The position numbers and the translations under genes were made by a program. This document shows, one piece after another, positions 20,554 to 50,443 of a DNA stretch of 64,000 nucleotides. Every line of letters begins with the position of its first letter. Positions within the stretch are counted from its first letter, which is position 1. A model generated the notes under the pieces. That model had not been told where the DNA came from. It saw nothing but the letters and a program-made list of their open reading frames with translations, and ran no database searches. Origin of the DNA: an uncultured Desulfovibrio sp. (GTDB lineage: Bacteria; Desulfobacterota; Desulfovibrionia; Desulfovibrionales; Desulfovibrionaceae); NCBI GenBank assembly GCA_900541395.1, contig UQJT01000003.1, forward strand, positions 1-64,000, written 5' to 3'.

Positions 20554-21726
20554 ATGAACGAATTTCCCCGTATGCTCCGCCTGCCGCCTTACGCGTTCAA
20601 CGTGGTCGGCGACATCAAAAAGGAATTGCGCCATCAGAACATCGACATCGTCGACCTGTCCATGGGCAATCCGGACCCGCCCACGCCCCGACATATCGTG
20701 GACAAAATGGTGGAGGCGGCGCAAAAACCGGTCAACCACCGGTATTCGGTGTCGCGGGGCATTCCCAACCTGCGCAAGGCTATCTGCGACTGGTATCGGC
20801 GACGTTTCGGCGTGGAGCTCAACCCCGATACCCAGGCCATCGCCACCATGGGCGCCAAGGAAGGCCTTTCCCATCTGTGTCTGGCCATGTTGGAACCCGG
20901 CGATGTGGTCTTCGCGCCCGATCCGACCTACCCGATCCATGTTTACGCTCCGGTCATCTGCGGCGCCGACGTGCGCCGGGTGCCCATCGGTGAGGGGCGT
21001 GACTTCTTCGACGATCTGCTGACCGCCACCAAACAGACCTGGCCCAAGCCCAAACTGCTTATTCTGAGCTTCCCGCACAATCCCACCACCCAGGTAACCA
21101 CCCTGGACTTTTTCCAAAAGGTGGTGGATTTCGCCAAAGAACACAAAATCTGGGTCATACATGATATGGCCTATGCCGATCTGGTGTTTGACGGCTACAA
21201 AGCGCCCAGTTTCCTGCAAGCCGAAGGCGCCCTCGACGTGGGCGTAGAGTTCTATTCCATGACCAAGGGCTACTCCATGGCCGGTTGGCGGGTGGGCTTC
21301 TGCGCGGGTAACGAAGAAATGATCCACGCCCTGACCCGCATCAAGAGCTACCTCGATTACGGCATCTTCCAGCCCATTCAGATCGCGGCCACCGTGGGCC
21401 TCAACGGCCCTGAGGAACCTGTGCGGGAAATCTGCGATATTTACCGCAAGCGCCGTGACTTCCTGTGCGAGGGGCTCAACCGTATCGGTTGGGAAATCGA
21501 GCCCCCCAAGGCCACCATGTTCTGCTGGGGTCATATTCCGGAACCTTACCGGGCTATGGGCTCCATGGAATTTTCCAAACTGCTGCTGACCGAGGGCCAC
21601 GTGGCCGTGCAACCGGGTATCGGCTTCGGCTCCTACGGCGATGAATACGTGCGCTTTGCGCTGATCGAGAACGAACAGCGAACTCGGCAGGCGCTCAAGG
21701 GCATTAAAAAAGTCATTTCCGGCTGA
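20554..21726 (+). CDS. alaC: Alanine aminotransferase AlaC-like
   Basis: A 390-residue class I/II PLP aminotransferase closely resembling E. coli AlaC (glutamate-pyruvate transaminase). Shared patterns include RLPPYAFNV at the start, [31 protein letters not shown] and the PLP-lysine motif [15 protein letters not shown], plus a C-terminal [19 protein letters not shown]. The neighbour downstream is homoserine dehydrogenase, an arrangement common in this family, which leaves open a role in aspartate-family transamination; LL-DAP aminotransferase is encoded separately at 51.6 kb. A terminator separates it from hom. Confidence 0.88.
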
Positions 21727-35408: not shown

Positions 35409-36098
35409 ATGCGTTATTACCCTATTTTTCTTGACTTGCGAGGCAAACGCTGCCTGGTGGTGGGCGCGGGTCGGGTGGGGCGCCGCAAAATCGCCGGGTT
35501 GCTGGAATGTGATCCGGCGGAAGTGCTGGTGCTCGACCCCGGCGTACCCTCCGCCGAAGTCCGCTCTCTGTTTGAACATCCGGCAGTGCGTCATGAACGC
35601 CGAGCCTTTGCGGCGGACGACGCCGCCGGGCGTCAACTGGCGTTCGCCGCCACCCCCGAACGGACCGTCAACGCCTTTGTAGCGGCCTGCTGCCGGGATC
35701 GGGGTGTACCGTGCAATGTGGCCGATGCTCCGGACCAAAGCGATTTTCTGGTGCCCGCTCGGGTGGAGAGCGGCTCTCTGACGTTGGCTGTGTCCACCGG
35801 CGGAGCCAGCCCTGCCCTGGCCCGAGCGTTGCGCGAAGACCTTGAAAAATGGCTGGGACGACGCTATTCTCGTTTGGTTTGCTTGCTGGATAAGTTGCGG
35901 CCCGCCATATTGGCCCTGCGCCTGGGCAGCGATGCGAACGCCGAAATGTTTCGTGCGTTGTGCGCTCTGCCCTTGCGGGAAACTCTGGCCGAAGCGTTGA
36001 ACGAGTCCGATTTCGGCCGCGCCGAAGTCCTGCTGCGCGAAATTCTGCCTTCGGTCTTGCATCCCTTCCTTGCGGAGCTGCTGCATGAATTGGATTGA
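35409..36098 (+). CDS. sirC: Precorrin-2 dehydrogenase / sirohydrochlorin synthase
   Basis: This 229-residue NAD-dependent enzyme oxidises precorrin-2 to sirohydrochlorin; it corresponds to the N-terminal half of CysG or to Met8. The start YYPIFLDLRGKRCLVVGAGRVGRRK is the diagnostic Rossmann motif, and FLVPARVESGSLTLAVSTGGASPALAR the catalytic region. Sirohydrochlorin feeds siroheme for dissimilatory sulfite reductase and, in Desulfovibrio, the alternative haem pathway. It is followed by ccsA/hemX and hemA in one operon. Confidence 0.93.
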   Translation: MRYYPIFLDLRGKRCLVVGAGRVGRRKIAGLLECDPAEVLVLDPGVPSAEVRSLFEHPAVRHERRAFAADDAAGRQLAFAATPERTVNAFVAACCRDRGVPCNVADAPDQSDFLVPARVESGSLTLAVSTGGASPALARALREDLEKWLGRRYSRLVCLLDKLRPAILALRLGSDANAEMFRALCALPLRETLAEALNESDFGRAEVLLREILPSVLHPFLAELLHELD

Positions 36099-38757: not shown

Positions 38758-40689
38758 TCAGGGGCGAAGAGCCTGCCGCACAGCCTCTTCCATTTGACCA
38801 GCGGTGTAGATGTCGCGCAGCACTACCGGCTTTCCCCAGGCGTCGCCTTCCGGAAATACAGCCAGGAGGGGGATACTGGCGCTGTCCAGCGCGCGCAGCA
38901 AAGCCTGGGCCTGGGCATCGTTGCGGGTCAGGTCCACACGCACCAGAGTCACATCGTATCGCTCCACCAGAGATTTCAGGTTGTCCGCCGTAAGCGTAGT
39001 GCGTTCCAACACCTTGCAGGTGGGGCACCAATCCGCGGTAAATTCCACCAGCAACGGCTTTTTTCCCAGCATGGAGCGAAACGTATCCGGCCGGAAAGGC
39101 TGCCACGTCACGCCAGGCGCGGCCGGAGCAAAACTGAGGTACATGCTGAACCCTACGGCCGCCAATCCTCCCGCCCCGATCAGAAGGCGACGCAGCAAAG
39201 TGCCGCGCAGGCTGCCCCATCGCCCCCATACCCAGGCCGCCGCAGCCGCTACCAGAAGCACGGCCAAAGCGGGAACCTGCATGGACGCGGGCAGAATGGA
39301 CAACAGATAAAGCGCCGTTCCCATCAGGAAAAAGCCCAGAACGCGCTCGAAGGTCAGCATCCAGTTCCCGGGGCGGGGCAGTGCGTTGGCCAGCGAAGGT
39401 TTCCAGGCCATAAGCAAATACGGCAGGGCCATACCCAGGCCGGTGGCCAGAAAAACGGTCATCAACACCGGCAAGGACTGCATGAGACTCCAACCAAGAA
39501 CGCCCCCCAACAGAGGGCCGCTGCACGGCGTGGCCAGCAAGGTAGCCAAAAGGCCCGTTGAATAAGCATTGAGACGCGGATTGGCATGAGAGCCGCCCAC
39601 GCGCAGATCCAGCACCGGCAGATGAAACACGTCGAACATGGACAGACCGAGGGCGAACACCAGGAGCAGCATGACGAATACCACGGCGCTGTTCTGGAAT
39701 AATTGTCCCCAGGCCATGCCCGCCAGCCCGAACAACAGGGCCAGGGCCGCAAACCAAGTCAGAATGCCCGCCGAAAACAGAATATTATGTTCCCTGAACG
39801 CCCGCTTCCGTTCTTTCTCTTCGCCTTCCGCCGCGAGCAAGGTGGATATTTTGAGCGTCAGCACCGGCAGTACGCAGGGCATGACATTAAGAATAAGCCC
39901 GGCCAGCAGCCCGAACAGCAGGGCCTTGCCCAGTCCCTGCACCTCCAGTGAGGCCTGGAGGGGGCGCGGGTCAAAGTTCCAACTATCATCCGTTCCGACC
40001 GAAATAAGGGATTCGCCATCCGACATGGTCGCAATCGGCGCGAATGGCTGACCGGCATTCAAGTTTTCTTTCGCCGCCCCTGAAGAAAAAGCGACGGAAG
40101 ACGCCTTTTCAGTCGGGGTGGTCATGGCTCCCGCTTCATCGGAACGGGCGCGGAACAAATCGTTCAGCCATACCGGTCGCTCCGTTGAAGAGGCGGGCGC
40201 GGACTCCGGCGGAACGCCCAAGGGCACGGTCGTCGTTACGGGAAAGCAGTTCTGCGAGGAACAGGCCAGCATGGAAACCGAGGCTTCCACATTCGCCGGG
40301 GTCGGATCCTGCGCGAACACTAAAAACACGGGCGTCGGCCCGTCGTAAACCCGGACCGTCATATCCGGTTCGAATACGTCGGCCTGAGGAACGCCCGGCA
40401 GATAGCGGACATCCGCGCCGGGAGCCTCTATTCTGGTAGGCATGGCTCCATCGCCGGGGTCATGGGCATAAGTGTGGTATCCTTCTTTAGGAAGCAACCA
40501 CAACACTGCCACGGTAGCGGCGTCGACAGGCGGAGTCAGAGCCTTCCCCTCCTGGTCCGTCAAGCGCATCCACTCCACCCGAAACTCGTATGGAAGTTCC
40601 GCTGCGGAGGCGGTCTGAAAAGACATGCCGGCCAACGCACACCAAACGCTCAAAATAAAAAAAATATTCCAACGCATAAGATGTTTCAT
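38758..40689 (-). CDS. dsbD: Thiol:disulfide interchange protein DsbD
   Basis: DsbD carries electrons from cytosolic thioredoxin across the inner membrane to periplasmic substrates. The 643-residue protein has a signal peptide, an N-terminal domain with paired cysteines (ACSSQNCFPV), a central eight-helix CcdA-like domain with cysteines in MPCVLPVL and ATPCSGPL, and a C-terminal thioredoxin-like domain with WCPTCK. A charged 40-residue linker joins the first two domains. It starts just upstream of the tRNA-Lys region, leftward. The ribosome site is weak. Confidence 0.93.
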   Translation of the reverse strand: MKHLMRWNIFFILSVWCALAGMSFQTASAAELPYEFRVEWMRLTDQEGKALTPPVDAATVAVLWLLPKEGYHTYAHDPGDGAMPTRIEAPGADVRYLPGVPQADVFEPDMTVRVYDGPTPVFLVFAQDPTPANVEASVSMLACSSQNCFPVTTTVPLGVPPESAPASSTERPVWLNDLFRARSDEAGAMTTPTEKASSVAFSSGAAKENLNAGQPFAPIATMSDGESLISVGTDDSWNFDPRPLQASLEVQGLGKALLFGLLAGLILNVMPCVLPVLTLKISTLLAAEGEEKERKRAFREHNILFSAGILTWFAALALLFGLAGMAWGQLFQNSAVVFVMLLLVFALGLSMFDVFHLPVLDLRVGGSHANPRLNAYSTGLLATLLATPCSGPLLGGVLGWSLMQSLPVLMTVFLATGLGMALPYLLMAWKPSLANALPRPGNWMLTFERVLGFFLMGTALYLLSILPASMQVPALAVLLVAAAAAWVWGRWGSLRGTLLRRLLIGAGGLAAVGFSMYLSFAPAAPGVTWQPFRPDTFRSMLGKKPLLVEFTADWCPTCKVLERTTLTADNLKSLVERYDVTLVRVDLTRNDAQAQALLRALDSASIPLLAVFPEGDAWGKPVVLRDIYTAGQMEEAVRQALRP

Positions 40690-40732
40690 GAGAAAATTTT
40701 AGGCGTTTTTTCCGACAAAGGCAAAAAAAATC

Positions 40733-40761
40733 TTGACGGAGGCTGACGTCCGCGCTAAACA
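40733..40761 (+). promoter_or_regulatory. tRNA-Lys promoter candidate
   Basis: TTGACG (40733-40738) and TAAACA (40756-40761) are separated by 17 bases, with the expected start about 14 bases before the tRNA. Confidence 0.5.
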
Positions 40762-40781
40762 CATCTTCGCGCTGACGCACT

Positions 40782-40857
<76 letters not shown>

Positions 40858-40867
40858 GAAAGAAATC

Positions 40868-40900
40868 AAGGACTTGGATTTTACTCCAAGTCCTTTTTTC
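40868..40900 (+). terminator. tRNA-Lys terminator
   Basis: AAGGACTTGGA (40868-40878) pairs with TCCAAGTCCTT (40885-40895) followed by TTTTC. Confidence 0.88.
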
Positions 40901-41016
40901 TTTGAAAATCCGACTCCAAACCCTATTTTTCAATTAAATACCAAAAAGAGACCTCTTGCATCTATGCTACTCCTTTAGAGTGCGTCATTCGTGAGAATGT
41001 AGGATGGCGTGACGAG

Positions 41017-41223
41017 CTAGTAAGGTGATTTTCCTTCCTGAACATAACGCAACCCCATAGAAAATCTTTTTCTACAAAAGGGACACTCATTAGCGGCCAG
41101 GTTGCTGATATGTGGATACCCTCCTCTGCCTTGTTTGACGCAGGGGTCACAAAATCTTTTATGGCAATCGCGACATTCTTTTATTAATCCAGTCTTGCAA
41201 ATGGGACACTTATCATTTGCCAT
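41017..41223 (-). CDS. Small zinc-ribbon protein
   Basis: A 68-residue protein with four CxxC-type knuckles in order: CPIC, CRDC, CDPC and CPFC, spaced so as to bind two zinc ions. The rest is basic and ends RYVQEGKSPY. A near-perfect AAGGAGG lies 6 bases before the ATG, which makes translation likely despite the small size. The surrounding DNA is AT-rich compared with the flanking genes. Function unknown; similar small double-zinc proteins act in nucleic-acid or protein binding. It is separated from both neighbours by more than 150 bases. Confidence 0.78.
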   Translation of the reverse strand: MANDKCPICKTGLIKECRDCHKRFCDPCVKQGRGGYPHISNLAANECPFCRKRFSMGLRYVQEGKSPY

Positions 41224-41521
41224 TGAAACCTCCTTAAGGGGTCGCTCTTTACCGTATCACTGCCCCAAATATCCTAATAGATAGTTTTCTGTTGAGCATT
41301 ACCCCTTCCATCATCTGATGGAGGTCTTTCACCCTCTCCCCTCTGTCCTGTTTATAGTCGATGGGTAGGAGTGAAAGAAACGGCCCCCCCAAACATCAGC
41401 TGGCTTGGGTAAATTCATAATCAGAATATTCTTTTCCTGGGGGAAGCATCCCGGGCACATTGCCTCCCCCGGGCAAAACGCTTACCATGACGAGGCTTTC
41501 CCCACCAGCCCCGGCGGCCCC
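41224..41521. other. Non-coding gap before the NifA-like gene
   Basis: This gap holds the divergent starts of the zinc-ribbon gene and the regulator. I see a short CCATCA/TGATGG hairpin (41318-41331 region) and a CCCGGG repeat pair in the last 80 bases, but no promoter that I can defend. Confidence 0.5.
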
Positions 41522-43168
41522 ATGAAGATATCCTCTCCGCGCCGTCCCGCCGCATCCGGGACGGATCAGAACGATGCCCTGCCCAGCCTGCGCAATGGCG
41601 TACGCGACGATGTGCGCGAGCTGCGCCTGCTGTTCGAACTGAGCCAGCTTCTCGACGGTGCGGCCCATATCGGCGAAACCCTGGACGGCGCGCTGTGCCT
41701 CATGGCCCGGCATATGGCCATGATGCGGGGCTCCATCTCTCTGGTTTCCCCCGGGGACGGGAGCATCCATATTGAAAGCTCCTACGGACTCAATGCCGCG
41801 GAACAGGCGCGCGGACACTATGCGGCGGGAGAAGGCGTCACCGGCACGGTTATCCGTACCGGACGCCCCATGGTCATTTCCAACGTGTCGGACGAGCCGC
41901 TCTTCCTCAACCGCACTAGGTCCCGCAATCTGCGCAAGGATGCCGTTTCCTTCATCTGCGTGCCCATCCGGGCCGACGATCAGGCCATCGGCGCCCTGTC
42001 CGTGGATCGGCTTTTTGCCGACACCTCCACTCTGGAGGAAGACGCCCGCCTGCTGACCATCATCGCATCCATGCTGGCCCGCGCGGCCAGAGTCCGCCAG
42101 AGCTGTCTCCCGGAGCGGAATGTGAACCGAGCCGCCAGAGGGCATGACAGGGGCAGAGTAAGCCTCCGCTCTCCCTTTTTCGTGGGTTCATGCGAGGCCA
42201 TGCAGCAGGTCTACGCCCGCATCGATCAGGTGGCCCGCTCTTCCGCCACGGTGCTGCTGCGGGGGGAAAGCGGAACGGGCAAGGAGCTTGCCGCGCTGGC
42301 CATCCACGCGGCAAGCCCGCGTGCGAACAGACCCTTCATCACCCTGAACTGCGCGGCCCTGCCCGAAACGCTGGTGGAAAACGAGCTGTTCGGCCACGAG
42401 CGCGGCGCGTTCACGGGAGCGCAGGGCCTGTACCGGGGCCGCTTTGAACAGGCGGATGGCGGCACGCTGTTTCTGGATGAAGTGGGAGATCTGCCCCCGC
42501 TTACCCAGGCCAAACTGCTGCGCGTCATTCAGGAGCGCAGCTATGAACGGCTGGGCGGCGCGGAAACCCGCCGCGCCGACGTGCGCCTGATCACCGCCAC
42601 CAACCGGCCGCTGGAAGATATGGTACATCAGGGAACATTCCGGGGCGACCTCTACTATCGCCTGAACGTCTTTCCCATCGAACTGCCCCCGCTCCGCGAG
42701 CGCAGCGGGGACATCGCCCTGCTGGCGGCTCACTTCATGAAAAAGTTCGCGGCGGCGGGAGGGCGGACGGAAATGAACCTTTCCCTCAGCGCGGCAGACA
42801 TGCTCCAGCGCTACGAATGGCCCGGCAATATCCGCGAACTGGAAAACATTATGGAGCGGGCCGTGTTGCTGGCCGGAGAGGAAGGCGTCATTCTGCCCCA
42901 GCATCTGCCCCCGGAACTGCACAGCAAGGGCTGCCCGGTTTCCGCTCCCGGAGTGCGGCGGGCGCAGGGCCATGCCGTCGGTCCGCTTCAGCCCCGTCTG
43001 GATGAACTGGAAAAGGGCTGTATCCTTGAGGCGCTGCGCTGTCATGAGGGTAATATGGGCAGGGCCGCCCGCGAACTGGGGCTGACCGATCGCATCATGG
43101 CCCTGCGCATGAAGAAGTACGGCATTACCTACAAGGAATTCCGCCGGAAACGGACCCGGCCTGAATAA
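41522..43168 (+). CDS. NifA-like sigma-54-dependent activator
   Basis: A 548-residue enhancer-binding protein. Residues about 35-190 form a GAF domain; the AAA+ domain starts at [11 protein letters not shown] (about 220) with Walker A GESGTGKE, the sigma-54-contacting loop GAFTGA and Walker [15 protein letters not shown], plus the arginine finger in [11 protein letters not shown]; a Fis-type helix-turn-helix ends the protein. There is no response-regulator receiver domain, so activity is likely set by the GAF ligand rather than phosphorylation. It lies directly upstream of a -24/-12 promoter and glnN, its probable target. The ATG at 41522 has no clear ribosome site; the only upstream in-frame alternative is TTG. 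Confidence 0.88.
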
Positions 43169-43171
43169 AAT

Positions 43172-43185
43172 CAACTTTTTTGTAG
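43172..43185 (+). promoter_or_regulatory. Putative activator box 1
   Basis: CAAC-TTTTTT-GTAG, followed by AAA. It starts four bases after the regulator's stop codon. Confidence 0.45.
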
Positions 43186-43211
43186 AAAATGCTGTTACCT
43201 GACATCTTTTT

Positions 43212-43225
43212 CAACAAAAATGTAG
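43212..43225 (+). promoter_or_regulatory. Putative activator box 2
   Basis: CAAC-AAAAAT-GTAG, followed by ATT; exactly 40 bases downstream of box 1. Confidence 0.45.
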
Positions 43226-43284
43226 ATTGCTGACTTTCCCTTTTGTCTTGCCGAATCCCGGCCTCTCGGCATACTCCTTTTCCA

Positions 43285-43310
43285 TAGAATCTACACAAGT
43301 GTAGATTCTA
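43285..43310 (+). promoter_or_regulatory. Putative activator box 3, 12-bp perfect palindrome
   Basis: CTAC-ACAAGT-GTAG at 43291-43304 sits in a perfect 12-bp inverted repeat (43285-43296/43299-43310) with a 2-base centre. It is followed by TTTTTGTTT, so it could instead be a Rho-independent terminator for the regulator gene; both readings are possible. Confidence 0.5.
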
Positions 43311-43403
43311 TTTTTGTTTCACATCTGTGCCCCTCCGCAAAAAATAACTATACTCTCTTGAAATAAAATATTTTTTATTTTAACACAAACACTCTTGTCC
43401 GTC

Positions 43404-43421
43404 CTGGCATCCTTCTTGCTC
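43404..43421 (+). promoter_or_regulatory. Sigma-54 promoter of glnN
   Basis: CTGGCAT...TTGCT: GG at 43406-43407 and GC at 43418-43419 are separated by exactly 10 bases, the strict -24/-12 spacing. Transcription would start near 43431, 50 bases before the chosen glnN ATG. Confidence 0.8.
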
Positions 43422-43481
43422 AAGCAGCTCCATCATGCCCGTGAACAGCGCGGGCACATGCCATCACTTGAGGAGCAAGCC

Positions 43482-45725
43482 ATGAGTTCACCACGCCAGG
43501 AAGCCATTCGCGATATTCTTTCCGACGACACCCCCGAAGAGTCGTCCGGTCCGGCCCCTCTGCGGCCGACCGTTGACATGCAGAGTCTGTTCGGCCGTGA
43601 CGTGTTCAATCTGCACGCCATGCGCGAACGTCTGCCGCGCGACACATACAGGAAGATGGAAAAGACCATCCGCTGCCGCGCTCCCATGCCGGCGGACATC
43701 GCCGATATCGTGGCCGGCGCCATCCGCGACTGGGCGCTGGAGCGCGGGGCAACGCACTACACGCACTGGTTCCAGCCCATGACCGGCGTCACGGCGGAAA
43801 AGCACGATGCTTTCCTTGCCCCCACCGGAGACGGGCACGCCATTCAGGAGTTTTCCGGCAAGATGCTGGTATGCGGGGAGCCCGACGCCTCCTCCTTCCC
43901 TTCCGGCGGCATCCGTTCCACGTTCGAGGCGCGCGGCTATACCGCCTGGGACCCCACCGTGCCGGTCTTCATCCTGCCCGGCAGGGGCGGCAATACCCTG
44001 CATATTCCCACCATTTTCTATTCCTGGTCCGGCGAATCGCTGGATCGCAAGACGCCGCTGCTGCGCTCCATTGAGGCCGTTTCCCGGCAGGCTCTGCGCG
44101 TGCTGCGCCTGTTCGGCGACCATGATGCCACCCACGTCAGCCCCATGGTCGGCGCGGAGCAGGAATACTTTCTCGTGGATCGCCGTCTTGCCGCGCTGCG
44201 CCCTGATCTGCTCATGACCGGAACGACCCTGAGCGGCCTTCCCTCCCCAAAGGGGCAGGAAATGGAAGATCACTATTTCGGCGCGGTGCCCAGGCGCGTC
44301 ATGGCGTTCATGCAGGATGTGGAAAACCGGCTCATCGCTCTGGGCATTCCGGTGCGCACCCGCCACAACGAAGTGGCTCCGGGCCAGTTTGAAATGGCCC
44401 CCCTGCATGAGGAAGTCAACATCGCCACCGACCACAACATGCTCATAATGAACATGCTGCGCCATGTGGCCCCTGATCATGGCTTCGTCTGCCTGCTGCA
44501 CGAAAAGCCCTTTGCGGGCGTGAACGGCAGCGGCAAGCACAACAACTGGTCCCTGTGTTCCTCCGACGGCCGGAATCTGCTCGATCCCGGCGATACCCCG
44601 CGCACCAACGCCCGCTTTCTGGTCTTTCTCGCCGCCGTACTGCGCGCCGTACACAAACACGCCATGGCCCTGCGTCTCGGCACCATCGGAGCCGGCAACG
44701 ATCACCGCCTCGGCGCCAATGAAGCCCCGCCCGCGATTATTTCCGTGTATCTCGGCGATCTGCTGGAAGAAACCCTGCTGAGCATCATCGGGGAACAGCC
44801 CGCGCACGCCAGAACCGCGCCCATGGAGATCGGCGTTTCCACGCTGCCGCCCCTGCCGCGCGACTACTCGGATCGCAACCGTACCAGTCCCTTCGCCTTT
44901 ACCGGCAACAAGTTCGAGTTCCGGGCCGTAGGCTCCTCCCAGTCCATCGCTCCGGCCAATATCGCCCTGAACAGCGCCGTGGCCTGCGCCCTGGACGATA
45001 TCGCCACCGAGCTGGAAGCCGCCGTGGAAGGCGGAAAGGAACTGAACGACGCCCTGAAGGATCTGCTGCCCCGTCTGTTCCGCGAACACATGCCCGTGGT
45101 CTTCAACGGCAACGGCTATTCCGCCGAATGGCCGGAAGAGGCCGCCCGGCGCGGCCTGCCCAACCTGAAGGATACCGTGGCCGCGCTGGAGCATTACGAC
45201 GACCCGGAAGTCATGGAAGTCTTCCTGCGCAACAGGGTGCTTTCCGAACCGGAAATTCTGGCCCGTCAGGAAATTCTCCAGGAAAACTATGCGCTGACCG
45301 TCGGCATCGAAGCCTCGGTGCTGGAACGCATGCTGCGCGAAATCGTGCTTCCCGTGACGCTGCGGGCCCAGAGCGAAGCCGCCCGTCTGGTGGCGGAAAT
45401 CCGCGCGGCGGAAGGGACTCCGGCCAATGTCGGGGCAGACGTCGGGGCAGGCGCGGCAAACAGTCTGCCCACAAATCTGGAAGAAAGGCGCTATGCGGCC
45501 TTCCGCTCCCATAACGTCGCCTTGATGACCGCGCTGGATGAGCTGCACGCCGCCCGCGAACAGCTTGCGGGCATGGACGGCGCTCCGGCCCGCGCCCGCG
45601 CCGCCCGCGATGCGGTGCTGCCGCTCATGCTCCGCTGCCGCGAACAATGCGACGCGCTGGAAGGCATGACCGACGACGCGGCCTGGCCGCTGCCCAAGTA
45701 TGCGGAGCTGCTCTGGACGCATTGA
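43482..45725 (+). CDS. glnN: Glutamine synthetase type III
   Basis: A 747-residue GSIII enzyme, which forms glutamine from glutamate, ammonia and ATP. Family signatures are GAEQEYFLVD, NEVAPGQFEMAPLHEEVN, HEKPFAGVNGSGKHNNWS, GNDHRLGANEAPPAI and NRTSPFAFTGNKFEFRAVGSS. Length is in the usual 700-750 range. I chose the ATG at 43482 because GAGGAG lies 7 bases upstream and because the in-frame start at 43395 would lie upstream of the sigma-54 transcription start. It is the first gene of glnN-gltB-dapF-dapL and is probably induced under nitrogen limitation by the adjacent NifA-like protein. Confidence 0.95.
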   Translation: MSSPRQEAIRDILSDDTPEESSGPAPLRPTVDMQSLFGRDVFNLHAMRERLPRDTYRKMEKTIRCRAPMPADIADIVAGAIRDWALERGATHYTHWFQPMTGVTAEKHDAFLAPTGDGHAIQEFSGKMLVCGEPDASSFPSGGIRSTFEARGYTAWDPTVPVFILPGRGGNTLHIPTIFYSWSGESLDRKTPLLRSIEAVSRQALRVLRLFGDHDATHVSPMVGAEQEYFLVDRRLAALRPDLLMTGTTLSGLPSPKGQEMEDHYFGAVPRRVMAFMQDVENRLIALGIPVRTRHNEVAPGQFEMAPLHEEVNIATDHNMLIMNMLRHVAPDHGFVCLLHEKPFAGVNGSGKHNNWSLCSSDGRNLLDPGDTPRTNARFLVFLAAVLRAVHKHAMALRLGTIGAGNDHRLGANEAPPAIISVYLGDLLEETLLSIIGEQPAHARTAPMEIGVSTLPPLPRDYSDRNRTSPFAFTGNKFEFRAVGSSQSIAPANIALNSAVACALDDIATELEAAVEGGKELNDALKDLLPRLFREHMPVVFNGNGYSAEWPEEAARRGLPNLKDTVAALEHYDDPEVMEVFLRNRVLSEPEILARQEILQENYALTVGIEASVLERMLREIVLPVTLRAQSEAARLVAEIRAAEGTPANVGADVGAGAANSLPTNLEERRYAAFRSHNVALMTALDELHAAREQLAGMDGAPARARAARDAVLPLMLRCREQCDALEGMTDDAAWPLPKYAELLWTH

Positions 45726-45847: not shown

Positions 45848-48800
45848 ATGACGACACGACAGCCTACCGACATCACCCATCCCAACCGCGAACACGACGC
45901 CTGCGGCGTCGGTTTTGTGGCCCGCCTGGACGGACGCCCCGCTCACAGAATCATCGAAGACGCCCTTTCCGCCATGACCAGCCTTGCCCACCGCGGCGGA
46001 CTTGCCTCCGGACGAGGCGAAGGCGACGGGGCAGGTCTGCTTCTCCCCCTTCCGCTTGATTTCCTGAGCCGTTTCTGGACCCTGCCTCCGGTCTTCGGGT
46101 TCGGACAGCTTTTTCTGCCCCGTGACGCGGCGGCTGGAAAAAGAGCCATGGCACTTGTGGAGGAAAGCCTTGCCGCGCAGGGTCTGGAACTGGCGGACGG
46201 GCGCGATGTTCCCGTCCGTCCCGACGCGCTCGGCCCGCACGCGCGCTCGCAGATGCCGCGCATGGCGCAGGTTCTCGTCCTGCCCCGCGCGGGAACATCC
46301 GGGACATTCCGGGATGCTTCCGCGCTTCCCGCCGTGGTTTCGCCGCTGGCCGAGCCGGGCGAGGAACTGGAGCGCCGCCTGTATCTCGCCCGCAAGGGCA
46401 TGGAACGGGCCGCGCGGAAACTGCCGGAACAGGAAGATTTTTACGTCGCCAGCCTGTCTTCCCGCAGCGTGGTGTACAAGGCCATGCTCACCGGAGCAAA
46501 ACTGGCGGACTTTTATCCCGATCTCGCTGATCCCCATTTCTCCGCCCCCTTTGCCGTCTTTCACGAGCGTTTCAGCACCAACACCATGCCGCGCTGGCGG
46601 CTGGCCCAGCCCTTCCGCATGCTGGCCCATAACGGCGAAATCAATACCCTGCAAAGCAATCTTACGCACATGAAGATCAGGGAAGCGGCCCTGTCCTCAC
46701 CGCTGTTCGGCGATCCGGACGGAGTCAGGCCGGTCATTGAAGAGGACGGAAGCGACTCCTCAGCTCTGGACAACGTGCTGGAACTGCTCACGCGCGGAGG
46801 CAGACCCCTGCCCCATTCCCTGATGATGCTCCTGCCGGAACCCTTTGGCCGGGCCTTTGTCATGGGCGACAACAAGCGCGCCTTCTATGACTGGCACGCG
46901 GCCATGATGGAAGCATGGGACGGCCCCTCCGCCCTGGTGTTCACCGACGGTTTCCGCCGCGTGGGAGCCATGCTCGACCGCAACGCGCTGCGGCCGGGCC
47001 GTTACAGCCTCAGCCGGGAGGGACTGCTGGTCTTTGCCTCGGAAAGCGGCGTGAGCCTCGCGCGGGAAGAAGCGGACTCCGTCCCCGGTGCGCAGCGCCG
47101 TCAACTGGGCGCGCGCCGCATGTTCATGGCCGACCTTGTCCAGCACCGCCTGCTCACCGACGCCGAACTGAAGGGGCAGGTAGTACGCGAACATCCCTAC
47201 CGCCGCTGGCAGGTGCGGACAAGCCTGGGCACCGCCGATCTTTTCCCTGCCGAACCGGATGGAGCGCACGCGGCGGCATGCGGCGATCTCCCCCGGCCAT
47301 GCGTTCGGCAACGCGCCCGACGCGATATGGACGCGCTGCGCCATATGGCGCTCAAGGGACAGGAGCCTGTTCTCTCTACCGGCAGTGACGAAGCGCTCGC
47401 CGCGCTGGACGACGCTCCCCGGCCCTTCTTCGACTATTTCCGCCAGCGTTTCGCGCAGGTGACCAATCCGCCCATTGACCCGCTGCGTGAAGAGCTTTCC
47501 ATGTCGCTCATGAGCTATGTGGGTCCGGAAGGCAATCTGCTCGCCCGTGAACCGGAAGCCCTGTTCCGCCTGCGTCTGCCCCATCCTTTCCTTCAGCGCG
47601 AAGACATGCGCCGCCTGCGTCTGGCAAGGCATGACAAACTGCGCCCTGTCCGGCTTGATGCGGTGTGGCGTCTGCCCGCCCGCAGTTCCGACGCGGGGGA
47701 AGCCCTGCGCGACGGACTGGAAGCGCTGTTCCGCGCGGCCGGGGAAGCTCTCGATCAGGGGGCGACGCTGCTGATCCTCAGCGATGCCGGGAGCGGCGGG
47801 GACAATCTGCTTCCCATCCCTTCCCTCCTTGCCGCCTCAGCCCTGCACAATCATCTTATCCGCGCGCGCAAGCGTCATCTGTGCGGACTCATTTCGGAAA
47901 ACGGCGATGCGTGGGAACCCATGCACATGGCCCAGCTCATCACCTGCGGCGCGGACGCCGTCTGCCCGTGGGGAGCGCTGGATGATGCCGAAAAACTGGG
48001 CGCGGAGGGCGGGCTCAGCGCCGAGGAAGCCCGTTCCGCTTACATCACCGCGTTGCGCAAGGGGCTGCTCAAGGCCATGGCCCGACTGGGCATTTCCACG
48101 CTGCGCAGCTTCCGGGGCGGGCATTTCTTTGAATGCGTCGGACTGAACAAGGAGTTTGCCGGGAGCTTCTTTGCCGACATGCCGGTACGCCTCGGCTCCG
48201 CCCTGCCGGGCATGGGACTCGGCCTGAACGAGTTTGCCGCCGAAGCCGCCGCCTTGCACGCCATGGAACAGGAAGGACGCGCGCCGTCCGAAACCCGCTT
48301 CTGGAACAGGGAAAGCGTCACCCTGCTGCAACGGGCCGTGGGATTTTCCCGCTCGGGCTCAGCGGAGGATGCAAGCGCCGATCCCGCCGCCTTTGCCAAA
48401 TTTGCCGCGCTGGCGGATGCGGCATCTCCCGCCTTCACCCCCCGCTCCTGTCTGCGTCTGATCGAGTCGGAACATCCCCTGCCGCTGAAAAGGGTAGAGA
48501 GCGCCGAAACCATCATGACCCGCTTTGTGGGCGCGGCCATGTCCCTTGGGGCGATCAGCGCCGAAGCGCATATCTGCGTGGCCCGCGCCTGCAACGCCGT
48601 TGGCGCGCGCTCCAACAGCGGTGAGGGAGGCGAGGACGAGACGCGCGGAGCGGATGAGGCGGGCGGCGACAGCCGTTCCCGCATCCGTCAGGTGGCATCG
48701 GGACGCTTCGGCGTGACCCTGGACTATCTGATCAATGCGGATGAAATCCAGATCAAGATCGCGCAGGGAGCCAAACCCGGCGAGGGAGGCCAGCTGCCCG

Positions 48801-50443
48801 CGGCCAAGGTCACGGAGGAAGTGGCCAGGCTGCGCCGCACCATGCCCGGCGTCACCCTTGTCTCCCCTCCGCCGCATCACGACATCTATTCCATTGAGGA
48901 TCTGGCCCAGCTCATCCACGATCTGCGCCGGGTCAGCCCCTCCTCGCGCATTTCGGTCAAGCTCGCCTCGGAAAGCGGTGTGGGTACCGTGGCCGTGGGT
49001 GTGGCAAAGGCAGGAGCCGACGGCATCCTCATTTCCGGCCACGACGGCGGCACCGGAGCCGCCCCGCTTTCCGCCATACGCCACTGCGGATCAGCGTGGG
49101 AATTCGGCCTGGCAGAGGCGCACCGCGCGCTCGTTGCCGGCGGTCTGCGCGACAGAATCCGGCTTCAGGCTGACGGCGGTCTGCGCAGCGGGCGCGACAT
49201 CGTCATCGCGGCGATTCTCGGCGCGGACGAATTCGGATTCGGCACGGCTCTGCTGGTGAGCTGCGGCTGCGTCATGTGCCGCAGATGCCATGAAGGCCGC
49301 TGCCCGGCAGGCATCGCCACGCAGGACGAAAAGCTCCGCCGCCGCTTCGCGGGCAGACCGGCGCATGTGGAAAACTTTCTGCGTCTTGTGGCGGAAGATG
49401 CGCGCCGCCATCTGGCCGCCCTCGGACTGCCCGCTCTGGAAGCGGCGCGGGATCGCCTCGATCTGCTGAAGCCTGCCCCCGCCGCGGGCAAGCGCGCCCT
49501 GCTGGACTGGACAGAACTGCTTGATGCCCCACTGCCCGCCGCGCCTGAAGAACGCGGCAATGACAGAGCCTTCGCTCCCACGCCGCTGGAACAGGCCATG
49601 CTCGATGCCGGTCGGGACGCGCTGGAAGGCGGCCCTTCCCGCCGGGTTTTCTCCGCCGGGATACGCAACTCGGATCGCGCCGTGGGAGCGCTGCTTTCCG
49701 GGGAGCTGGCCCGCCGCCACGGTATCCGCCGCCTGAAGGACGCGGCGGCGGACGGCCCCTTCTTCCGCGCGCTGCTGCGCGGCTCCGCGGGCCAGAGTCT
49801 CGGAGCCTTTCTTGCCCCCGGCGTGGAAATCACTGTGGAAGGCGATGCCAACGACTATGCCGGAAAAGGACTGTGCGGAGGCCGCCTGATCATACGGCCC
49901 GCCGATCCTGACGCCCCTTCCGGGCTGGAGCCCGGTCAGGCCATCACCGGCAACGTGGCTCTGTACGGAGCCACCGGCGGAGAAGCCTACTTCCGGGGCC
50001 GCGCGGGCGAACGCCTCGCGGTGCGCAACAGCGGCGCGCTGTGTGTGGCGGAAGGAGCGGGCGATCATGCCTGCGAATATATGACGGGAGGCGTCGTGGT
50101 GGTGCTGGGAAGCTGCGGCTACAACTTCGCGGCGGGCATGAGCGGCGGTGTGGCCTTTGTCTATGATCGGGATGAACGCTTTCAGAACCGCTGCAACACC
50201 GACAGCGTGGACCTGGAATCCGTCTGGACCGAAGCCGACAAACAGTTGCTGCGCGGGCTGCTGGAAAACCATGTCCGCCACACCGGAAGCCCCCGGGCCG
50301 AAGCCCTGCTTGCCAACTGGGATGCGGAACTCCCGCTTTTCGTCAAGGTCATGCCGCTGGAAGCTCGCGCCGCTCTCGCGCGCCGGCACGCCAGCCAGCG
50401 GCACGGCGGAGATGTGGCCCCGGCCACCGAAGACGTGCTTTAA
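45848..50443 (+). CDS. gltB: Glutamate synthase large subunit (GltB-type)
   Basis: Glutamate synthase makes two glutamates from glutamine and 2-oxoglutarate. The 1531-residue protein has a class II amidotransferase domain whose nucleophile is Cys19 (EHDACGVGFVARLDG), implying removal of an 18-residue propeptide; a central domain; an FMN domain with SNSGEGGED, GAKPGEGGQLPAAKV and GHDGGTGAAPLSAI; the [3Fe-4S] cysteines in CVMCRRCHEGRCPAGIATQ; and the C-terminal GXGXG beta-helix. No gltD small subunit is adjacent: dapF follows after 25 bases. The electron donor is thus unclear: either GltD encoded elsewhere or direct ferredoxin. The ribosome site is weak, suggesting coupling from the upstream message. 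Confidence 0.95.
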   Translation: MTTRQPTDITHPNREHDACGVGFVARLDGRPAHRIIEDALSAMTSLAHRGGLASGRGEGDGAGLLLPLPLDFLSRFWTLPPVFGFGQLFLPRDAAAGKRAMALVEESLAAQGLELADGRDVPVRPDALGPHARSQMPRMAQVLVLPRAGTSGTFRDASALPAVVSPLAEPGEELERRLYLARKGMERAARKLPEQEDFYVASLSSRSVVYKAMLTGAKLADFYPDLADPHFSAPFAVFHERFSTNTMPRWRLAQPFRMLAHNGEINTLQSNLTHMKIREAALSSPLFGDPDGVRPVIEEDGSDSSALDNVLELLTRGGRPLPHSLMMLLPEPFGRAFVMGDNKRAFYDWHAAMMEAWDGPSALVFTDGFRRVGAMLDRNALRPGRYSLSREGLLVFASESGVSLAREEADSVPGAQRRQLGARRMFMADLVQHRLLTDAELKGQVVREHPYRRWQVRTSLGTADLFPAEPDGAHAAACGDLPRPCVRQRARRDMDALRHMALKGQEPVLSTGSDEALAALDDAPRPFFDYFRQRFAQVTNPPIDPLREELSMSLMSYVGPEGNLLAREPEALFRLRLPHPFLQREDMRRLRLARHDKLRPVRLDAVWRLPARSSDAGEALRDGLEALFRAAGEALDQGATLLILSDAGSGGDNLLPIPSLLAASALHNHLIRARKRHLCGLISENGDAWEPMHMAQLITCGADAVCPWGALDDAEKLGAEGGLSAEEARSAYITALRKGLLKAMARLGISTLRSFRGGHFFECVGLNKEFAGSFFADMPVRLGSALPGMGLGLNEFAAEAAALHAMEQEGRAPSETRFWNRESVTLLQRAVGFSRSGSAEDASADPAAFAKFAALADAASPAFTPRSCLRLIESEHPLPLKRVESAETIMTRFVGAAMSLGAISAEAHICVARACNAVGARSNSGEGGEDETRGADEAGGDSRSRIRQVASGRFGVTLDYLINADEIQIKIAQGAKPGEGGQLPAAKVTEEVARLRRTMPGVTLVSPPPHHDIYSIEDLAQLIHDLRRVSPSSRISVKLASESGVGTVAVGVAKAGADGILISGHDGGTGAAPLSAIRHCGSAWEFGLAEAHRALVAGGLRDRIRLQADGGLRSGRDIVIAAILGADEFGFGTALLVSCGCVMCRRCHEGRCPAGIATQDEKLRRRFAGRPAHVENFLRLVAEDARRHLAALGLPALEAARDRLDLLKPAPAAGKRALLDWTELLDAPLPAAPEERGNDRAFAPTPLEQAMLDAGRDALEGGPSRRVFSAGIRNSDRAVGALLSGELARRHGIRRLKDAAADGPFFRALLRGSAGQSLGAFLAPGVEITVEGDANDYAGKGLCGGRLIIRPADPDAPSGLEPGQAITGNVALYGATGGEAYFRGRAGERLAVRNSGALCVAEGAGDHACEYMTGGVVVVLGSCGYNFAAGMSGGVAFVYDRDERFQNRCNTDSVDLESVWTEADKQLLRGLLENHVRHTGSPRAEALLANWDAELPLFVKVMPLEARAALARRHASQRHGGDVAPATEDVL

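Follow-up and report, generated by a model that had tools for sequence, protein, structure and literature searches.

Conserved CTAC-N6-GTAG boxes upstream of glnN, a likely enhancer of a neighbouring GAF-containing sigma-54 activator in Desulfovibrionaceae

The gap upstream of glnN in this uncultured Desulfovibrio sp. contains three palindromic boxes that are conserved in related genomes and, as judged from comparative sequence evidence, are likely the enhancer through which the neighbouring GAF-AAA+-HTH activator would switch on glnN, and probably gltB, from a sigma-54 promoter. The features of the window, that is, the whole stretch of 64,000 nucleotides analysed, are the following:

41405..43168, plus strand: activator gene, which starts at either TTG 41405 or ATG 41522
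43171..43186, plus strand: box 1, TCAACTTTTTTGTAGA, 9/10 to TCTAC-N6-GTAGA, aligned in five orthologous gaps
43211..43226, plus strand: box 2, TCAACAAAAATGTAGA, 9/10, reads TCTAC in G022 and G007, in the gap alignment
43284..43311, plus strand: extended 28-bp palindrome with 13-bp arms and a 2-bp centre, TTTTTG next to it, possible terminator of the activator gene
43290..43305, plus strand: box 3, TCTACACAAGTGTAGA, 10/10, forming the core of the 28-bp palindrome, in the gap alignment
43405..43420, plus strand: -24/-12 sigma-54 promoter element, TGGCATCCTTCTTGCT (GG 43406-43407, GC 43418-43419), aligned in five gaps
43482..45725, plus strand: glnN, type III glutamine synthetase (Pfam PF12437, PF18318, PF00120)
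45848..50443, plus strand: gltB-like glutamate synthase large subunit (NCBIfam NF008730, above cut-off)

Sites were scored by the number of letters, out of 10, matching the palindrome TCTAC-N6-GTAGA. The gap between the activator gene and glnN, scored as 43169-43493, contains three sites of at least 9/10, and one more is found elsewhere in the window, at 21233. In 5000 dinucleotide shuffles of the gap the mean was 0.0028 sites, and three were never reached. A pattern search placed all three boxes and the 40-base step where the first-pass annotation had claimed them: CAAC-N6-GTAG lies at 43172-43185 and again 40 bp further on, at 43212-43225, and CTAC-N6-GTAG occupies 43291-43304, with the longer palindrome TCWAC-N6-GTAGA fitting all of them (43171-43186, 43211-43226 and 43290-43305). 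The distances claimed from the predicted start (about -253, -213 and -133) were recomputed for the box centres as about -253, -213 and -134, relative to a start at about 43431. With palindromic matches scored on both strands, CWAC-N6-GTAG shows five matches across the window (0.91 expected, and fewer than five in each of 100 shuffles), and the single one outside the gap, at 35669, lies within a long ORF.

The GG-N10-GC element is located exactly at the annotated 43406-43419, and TGGCATCCTTCTTGCT fits the sigma-54 consensus tGGcacg / tTGCt, as quoted in the accessible part of PMC4641369. A sigma-54 gene was found in all six relatives searched. The glnN ATG, at 43482, is preceded by GAGGAG, and 122 bp separate glnN from the gltB-like gene, which we infer to be probably part of the same transcript.

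The activator contains GAF (PF01590), sigma-54 AAA+ (PF00158), PF25601 and Fis-type HTH (PF02954) domains. It is a sigma-54 enhancer-binding protein by its PF00158 match (2.5e-69) with GAFTGA and its C-terminal HTH (PF02954, 1e-8), from which a recognition helix of 15 residues was read in the translation; no receiver domain was matched in Pfam. The protein is 99% identical in G001, the closest genome compared, and in Candidatus Mailhella excrementigallinarum (Desulfovibrionaceae), and matches at E <= 1e-135, by score and not by tree, were found in 94 of 288 Desulfovibrionaceae genomes. Upstream of the activator gene, a small reading frame on the minus strand (41040-41222 of the window) shows cysteine pairs and is zinc-ribbon-like by eye. 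The possibility that the activator also controls its own gene through these boxes was discarded, since no site of at least 8/10 starts within 40651-41560.

The description of this activator as NifA-like stands for its architecture and falls for NifA membership. Both proteins share the GAF-AAA+-Fis HTH order, and the NifA equivalog TIGR01817 is the best NCBIfam match of the window activator; however, its 479.5 bits are below the cut-off of 528.85, the neighbouring target is glnN and not nif, and the gap shows no match to TGT-N10-ACA, the NifA upstream activator consensus, so that NifA membership was rejected on score and site and the box motif is distinct from the classic one, as annotated. TGT-N10-ACA has three matches elsewhere in the window, and in the upstream regions of the wider survey described below it is present in 12 of 69, against 9.4 in mononucleotide shuffles. 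NtrC and glnA of enteric bacteria combine upstream enhancer sites and a sigma-54 promoter with a glutamine synthetase as target, and the working principle of the window would be alike. In contrast to NtrC, the window activator combines a GAF domain with the lack of any receiver-domain match, it reaches 330 bits with the NtrC equivalog TIGR01818 (cut-off 558.6), and its neighbouring synthetase is type III, whereas that of the NtrC system is type I. Sigma-54 enhancer control of nitrogen assimilation is an already known kind of regulation, of which the activator/box pair is best read as a variant.

Conservation in orthologous loci, which the first-pass annotation had made decisive for the boxes, was found in five aligned gaps (window, G001, G022, G153 and G007). 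These show the three boxes and the promoter in register, box spacings of 40-41 and 79-80 bp and a constant distance from promoter to start codon; box 1 of G022 retains only 8 of the 10 letters. In G007 three perfect boxes precede glnN, with 491 bp of upstream sequence covered, and the sole close activator gene of this genome lies on a different contig, where the genes behind it do not include glnN as the next one. The activator on the 5.3-kb contig G022:C167 (L002) is 91% identical to that of the window and its genome is placed in another genus; this contig may be mis-binned. Three boxes are also present in G018, G019 and G016, of the same genus as the window, spaced 72 and 115 bp apart. The promoter element was seen in 20 of the 23 regions inspected, with the start of the nearest box 100-155 bp upstream in these 20. 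In the 3.7 Mb of G001, TCWACN6GTAGA occurs at three places, every one before glnN. A search of G001 with one mismatch gave 32 places, fewer than the 105 of a reversed control pattern, and three together in the glnN gap only, and a wider regulon in this genome was therefore rejected. Among those places, G001:C2:143515 and 143604 form a pair of one-mismatch boxes 89 bp apart with GC-rich middles.

Box 3 is the centre of a palindrome, as had been noted; its size, given as 12 bp, was measured as 28 bp (43284-43311). As RNA, the palindrome is predicted to form a hairpin of -13.6 kcal/mol (z -5.4), with a 12-bp stem and a 4-base loop, ahead of TTTTTG, and it is matched by a terminator scan which gave 6 such matches in the scanned region against 5.4 expected. 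Furthermore, two arm positions co-vary between the window and G022, where one further pair is broken. These features would suit a palindrome that is mainly an intrinsic terminator of the activator gene, with boxes 1 and 2 as the only operators, but we consider this quite improbable: the TCTAC/GTAGA core stays at the spacing of the boxes in each of the five gaps, with a single letter changed in G022, it is kept in G007 although the activator gene lies elsewhere in that genome, and the boxes before amtB in G008 and G010 also include one nearest the promoter. The terminator alternative, raised by the first-pass annotation itself, has in its favour the hairpin and TTTTTG of the window, and against it the T run missing in G153 and G007. 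Because these two genomes keep the box letters without that run, the operator role is placed first for the third palindrome, which may also end the activator transcript.

In a tree of 77 activators, the window activator belongs to clade A, a group of 15 rows, and the DVU1949-like activators fall in clade B, which has 33; both clades have support of 100/100, and the tree carries long-branch warnings, which include L016 and L013 of clade A. A third activator clade was set aside as a candidate; metK adjoins the one locus checked. Related activator-bearing genomes were scanned for the boxes, as the first-pass annotation had proposed, in 69 upstream regions, a subset of the clade-A genomes, which number 94 at the strict threshold, with G017, G025, G068 and G125 in addition carrying partial genes. 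At least one site of 9/10 or better is found in 41 of the 69 regions, with a total of 78 sites; shuffles gave 0.25 regions. The spacing is specific as well: N6 gave the 78 sites, and other spacings between N0 and N15 gave 0-4. By genus label, regions with a site are 11/11 in g1, 2/2 in g48, 24/47 in g41, 1/2 in each of g7 and g9, 1/1 in each of g2 and g4, and 0/3 in g42; all 11 same-genus clade-A genomes have a site. Second glnN copies in ten same-genus genomes, eight of them with clade A, show no site of at least 8/10. That the boxes are chance words has in its favour AT-rich flanks which also contain weak -35/-10-like words, but the dinucleotide shuffles, the alternative spacings, the second glnN copies and the five orthologous gaps contradict it, and an origin by chance or composition can be dismissed with near certainty.

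An unbiased count of palindromic dyads in the 52 clade-A regions outside the genus of the window ranks CTAC-N6-GTAG second (15 against 0.03 expected), after GGCA-N7-TGCC, which fits the promoter element; the strict promoter pattern TGGC[AG]N6[TC]TGC is found in 31 of the 69 regions, against 0.28 in mononucleotide shuffles. Comparison across relatives gives good support to the proposal that the boxes are an operator of distinct binding specificity. No site of at least 9/10 is present in 28 of the 69 regions. In 27 regions without such a site, CGAC-N6-GTCG occurs in 5 and GACA-N4-TGTC in 6, against 0.05 each; these sequences may be a drifted form of the box word, not the same word.

In some relatives the gene order is activator, boxes, amtB, glnB, glnN, genes whose products serve ammonium uptake and assimilation. 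G010 shows the boxes, the promoter TGGCACGCTTCTTGCT, amtB (PF00909), glnB (PF00543), glnN and gltB in this order, and in G008 the boxes also precede amtB. Among 80 further pieces, 25 have the order activator-amtB-glnB, 14 of them with a 9/10 box between activator and amtB. Neighbouring genes in relatives were taken from ORF picking, which may give wrong strands in GC-rich genes, and some were checked with Pfam. In genus g42, four clade-A relatives directly upstream of glnN (L399, L402, L403 and L404) match from about residue 243-254 and show no GAF match; these four loci have no 9/10 box upstream, and one 8/10 word in L403 lies inside the reading frame. In the 1.4 Mb genomes G168 and G139 (L396 and L395), only a remnant of the window-type activator lies upstream of glnN, followed in G168 by a glnB tail, with no amtB match in that piece. 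No box of 8/10 was found, and the remnants fit the loss of the switch in reduced genomes.

At least four genomes (G015, G301, G014 and G120, with completeness of 96, 91, 69 and 92%) have boxes and no detected clade-A gene, absence being judged from matches at 1e-90 or stronger. The group lacking clade A shows a site in 2 of 11 regions (G015 and G301), against 41 of 69 in the group with clade A, a modest contrast (Fisher p 0.02) that ignores kinship. The count covers clade-A genomes from which a piece was retrieved. Left out of it were regions that are short or at a contig edge (G103, G124, G174, G005), clade-A relatives without GAF (G175, G177, G180, G183, G185) and clade-A genomes without a glnN or amtB start in the piece (G155, G308, G306, G100, G160, G102); six genomes lacking clade A (G014, G091, G120, G171, G281, G299) were placed in neither group. 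In G015 and G301 an activator of a second kind lies near glnN and may recognise this box in these two genomes. In G120, where no clade-A gene was found, perfect TCTAC-N6-GTAGA words at 2566, 2700 and 2811, together with TGGCACGCTTTTCGCT, lie upstream of a gene that is dapF-like by eye (L389, G120:C288). Because of the boxes in at least four genomes with no clade-A gene detected and of the 28 regions without a 9/10 site, the clade-A activator is, from sequence comparison, the likely and not the proven partner of the boxes.

DVU1949 of Desulfovibrio vulgaris Hildenborough, in the same order of bacteria, is described in the accessible part of Kazakov et al. 2015 (PMC4641369) as a one-component sigma-54 activator of nitrogen metabolism and transport genes, co-located with iorAB, with a regulon that takes in DVU1258 and other nitrogen operons. 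Clade B fits a DVU1949-like group by its iorAB-type gene context, not by DVU1949 sequence: genes for TPP/POR-type oxidoreductases adjoin the activator in four of the five clade-B loci scanned. The window activator was rejected as an orthologue of this DVU1949-like group, as it falls outside the iorAB-associated clade in the tree; moreover, it adjoins glnN and its boxes read CTAC-N6-GTAG, whereas glnN regions at order/family level mostly show TTACA-N4-TGTAA.

The boxes could be true enhancer sites whose partner is instead clade B, which lies beside amtB-glnB in G001, acting alone or together with clade A. The DVU1949 regulon would agree with this; furthermore, clade B is found near glnN in same-genus genomes and, in G017, beside split glutamate synthase genes (Pfam), and G015 and G301 combine boxes and a clade-B-like gene near glnN with no detected clade-A gene, although the G301 gene is outside the tree. 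We nevertheless regard a clade-B partner as unlikely. The CTAC site is in none of the 11 order/family-level regions, nine of which come from genomes with a clade-B tree row, and six of those nine have TTACA-N4-TGTAA at 9/10. In addition, the clade-B locus of G001 has TTACAGAATTGTAC before amtB, and clade A occurs together with boxes before amtB in G008 (100% complete) and in G010, with no clade-B match among those listed; G010 also has a full-length relative from a further clade (L175). TTACA-N4-TGTAA is perhaps the word of the DVU1949-like activator. At 9/10 it is found in 8 of the 11 order/family-level glnN regions (L151-L162), and since these include G024 and G028, which have no clade-B row, it is not proof of clade B; it is also present in 10 of the 69 clade-A regions. 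In G001 the second activator (L169, G001:C27) adjoins amtB-glnB, and amtB is preceded by TTACAGAATTGTAC and TGGCACGTTCCATGCT.

The accessible part of the D. vulgaris regulome study (PMC4641369) reports few orthologues of the D. vulgaris sigma-54 activators, on which the study is based, in D. desulfuricans and D. piger, and activators without such an orthologue should then lie outside its regulons. No title describing the window activator or its box was found in the open-licence literature, and the activator/operator pair for ammonium assimilation is apparently undescribed.

With the clade-A activator as the likely partner, the neighbouring GAF-AAA+-HTH protein would bind the TCTAC-N6-GTAGA boxes as an enhancer and, by DNA looping, contact the sigma-54 form of RNA polymerase on the predicted -24/-12 element, and glnN, and probably gltB, would be switched on when nitrogen is short; we infer that it activates rather than represses. 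By analogy with NifA, the GAF domain might respond to a nitrogen signal, possibly 2-oxoglutarate or a PII protein. It is a tentative idea, to which we lean less than halfway, that clade A reads CTACA-N4-TGTAG and serves glnN-gltB, that clade B reads TTACA-N4-TGTAA and serves amtB-glnB, and that in many relatives clade A alone serves amtB-glnB-glnN.

If this is true, two related activators in one cell would split ammonium assimilation by a symmetric change of the DNA word, and the clade A/B pair would be a natural experiment in how the DNA code of a regulator can shift without cross-talk. With the paired CTAC/TTAC words, it would become possible to test directly how DNA specificity has diverged between related activators. 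Likewise, the operator offers a testable regulon for an activator matched in 94 of 288 Desulfovibrionaceae genomes and predicts control of ammonium uptake and glutamine synthesis in these bacteria, which, if true, would have a dedicated and apparently undescribed nitrogen switch in about a third of the family.
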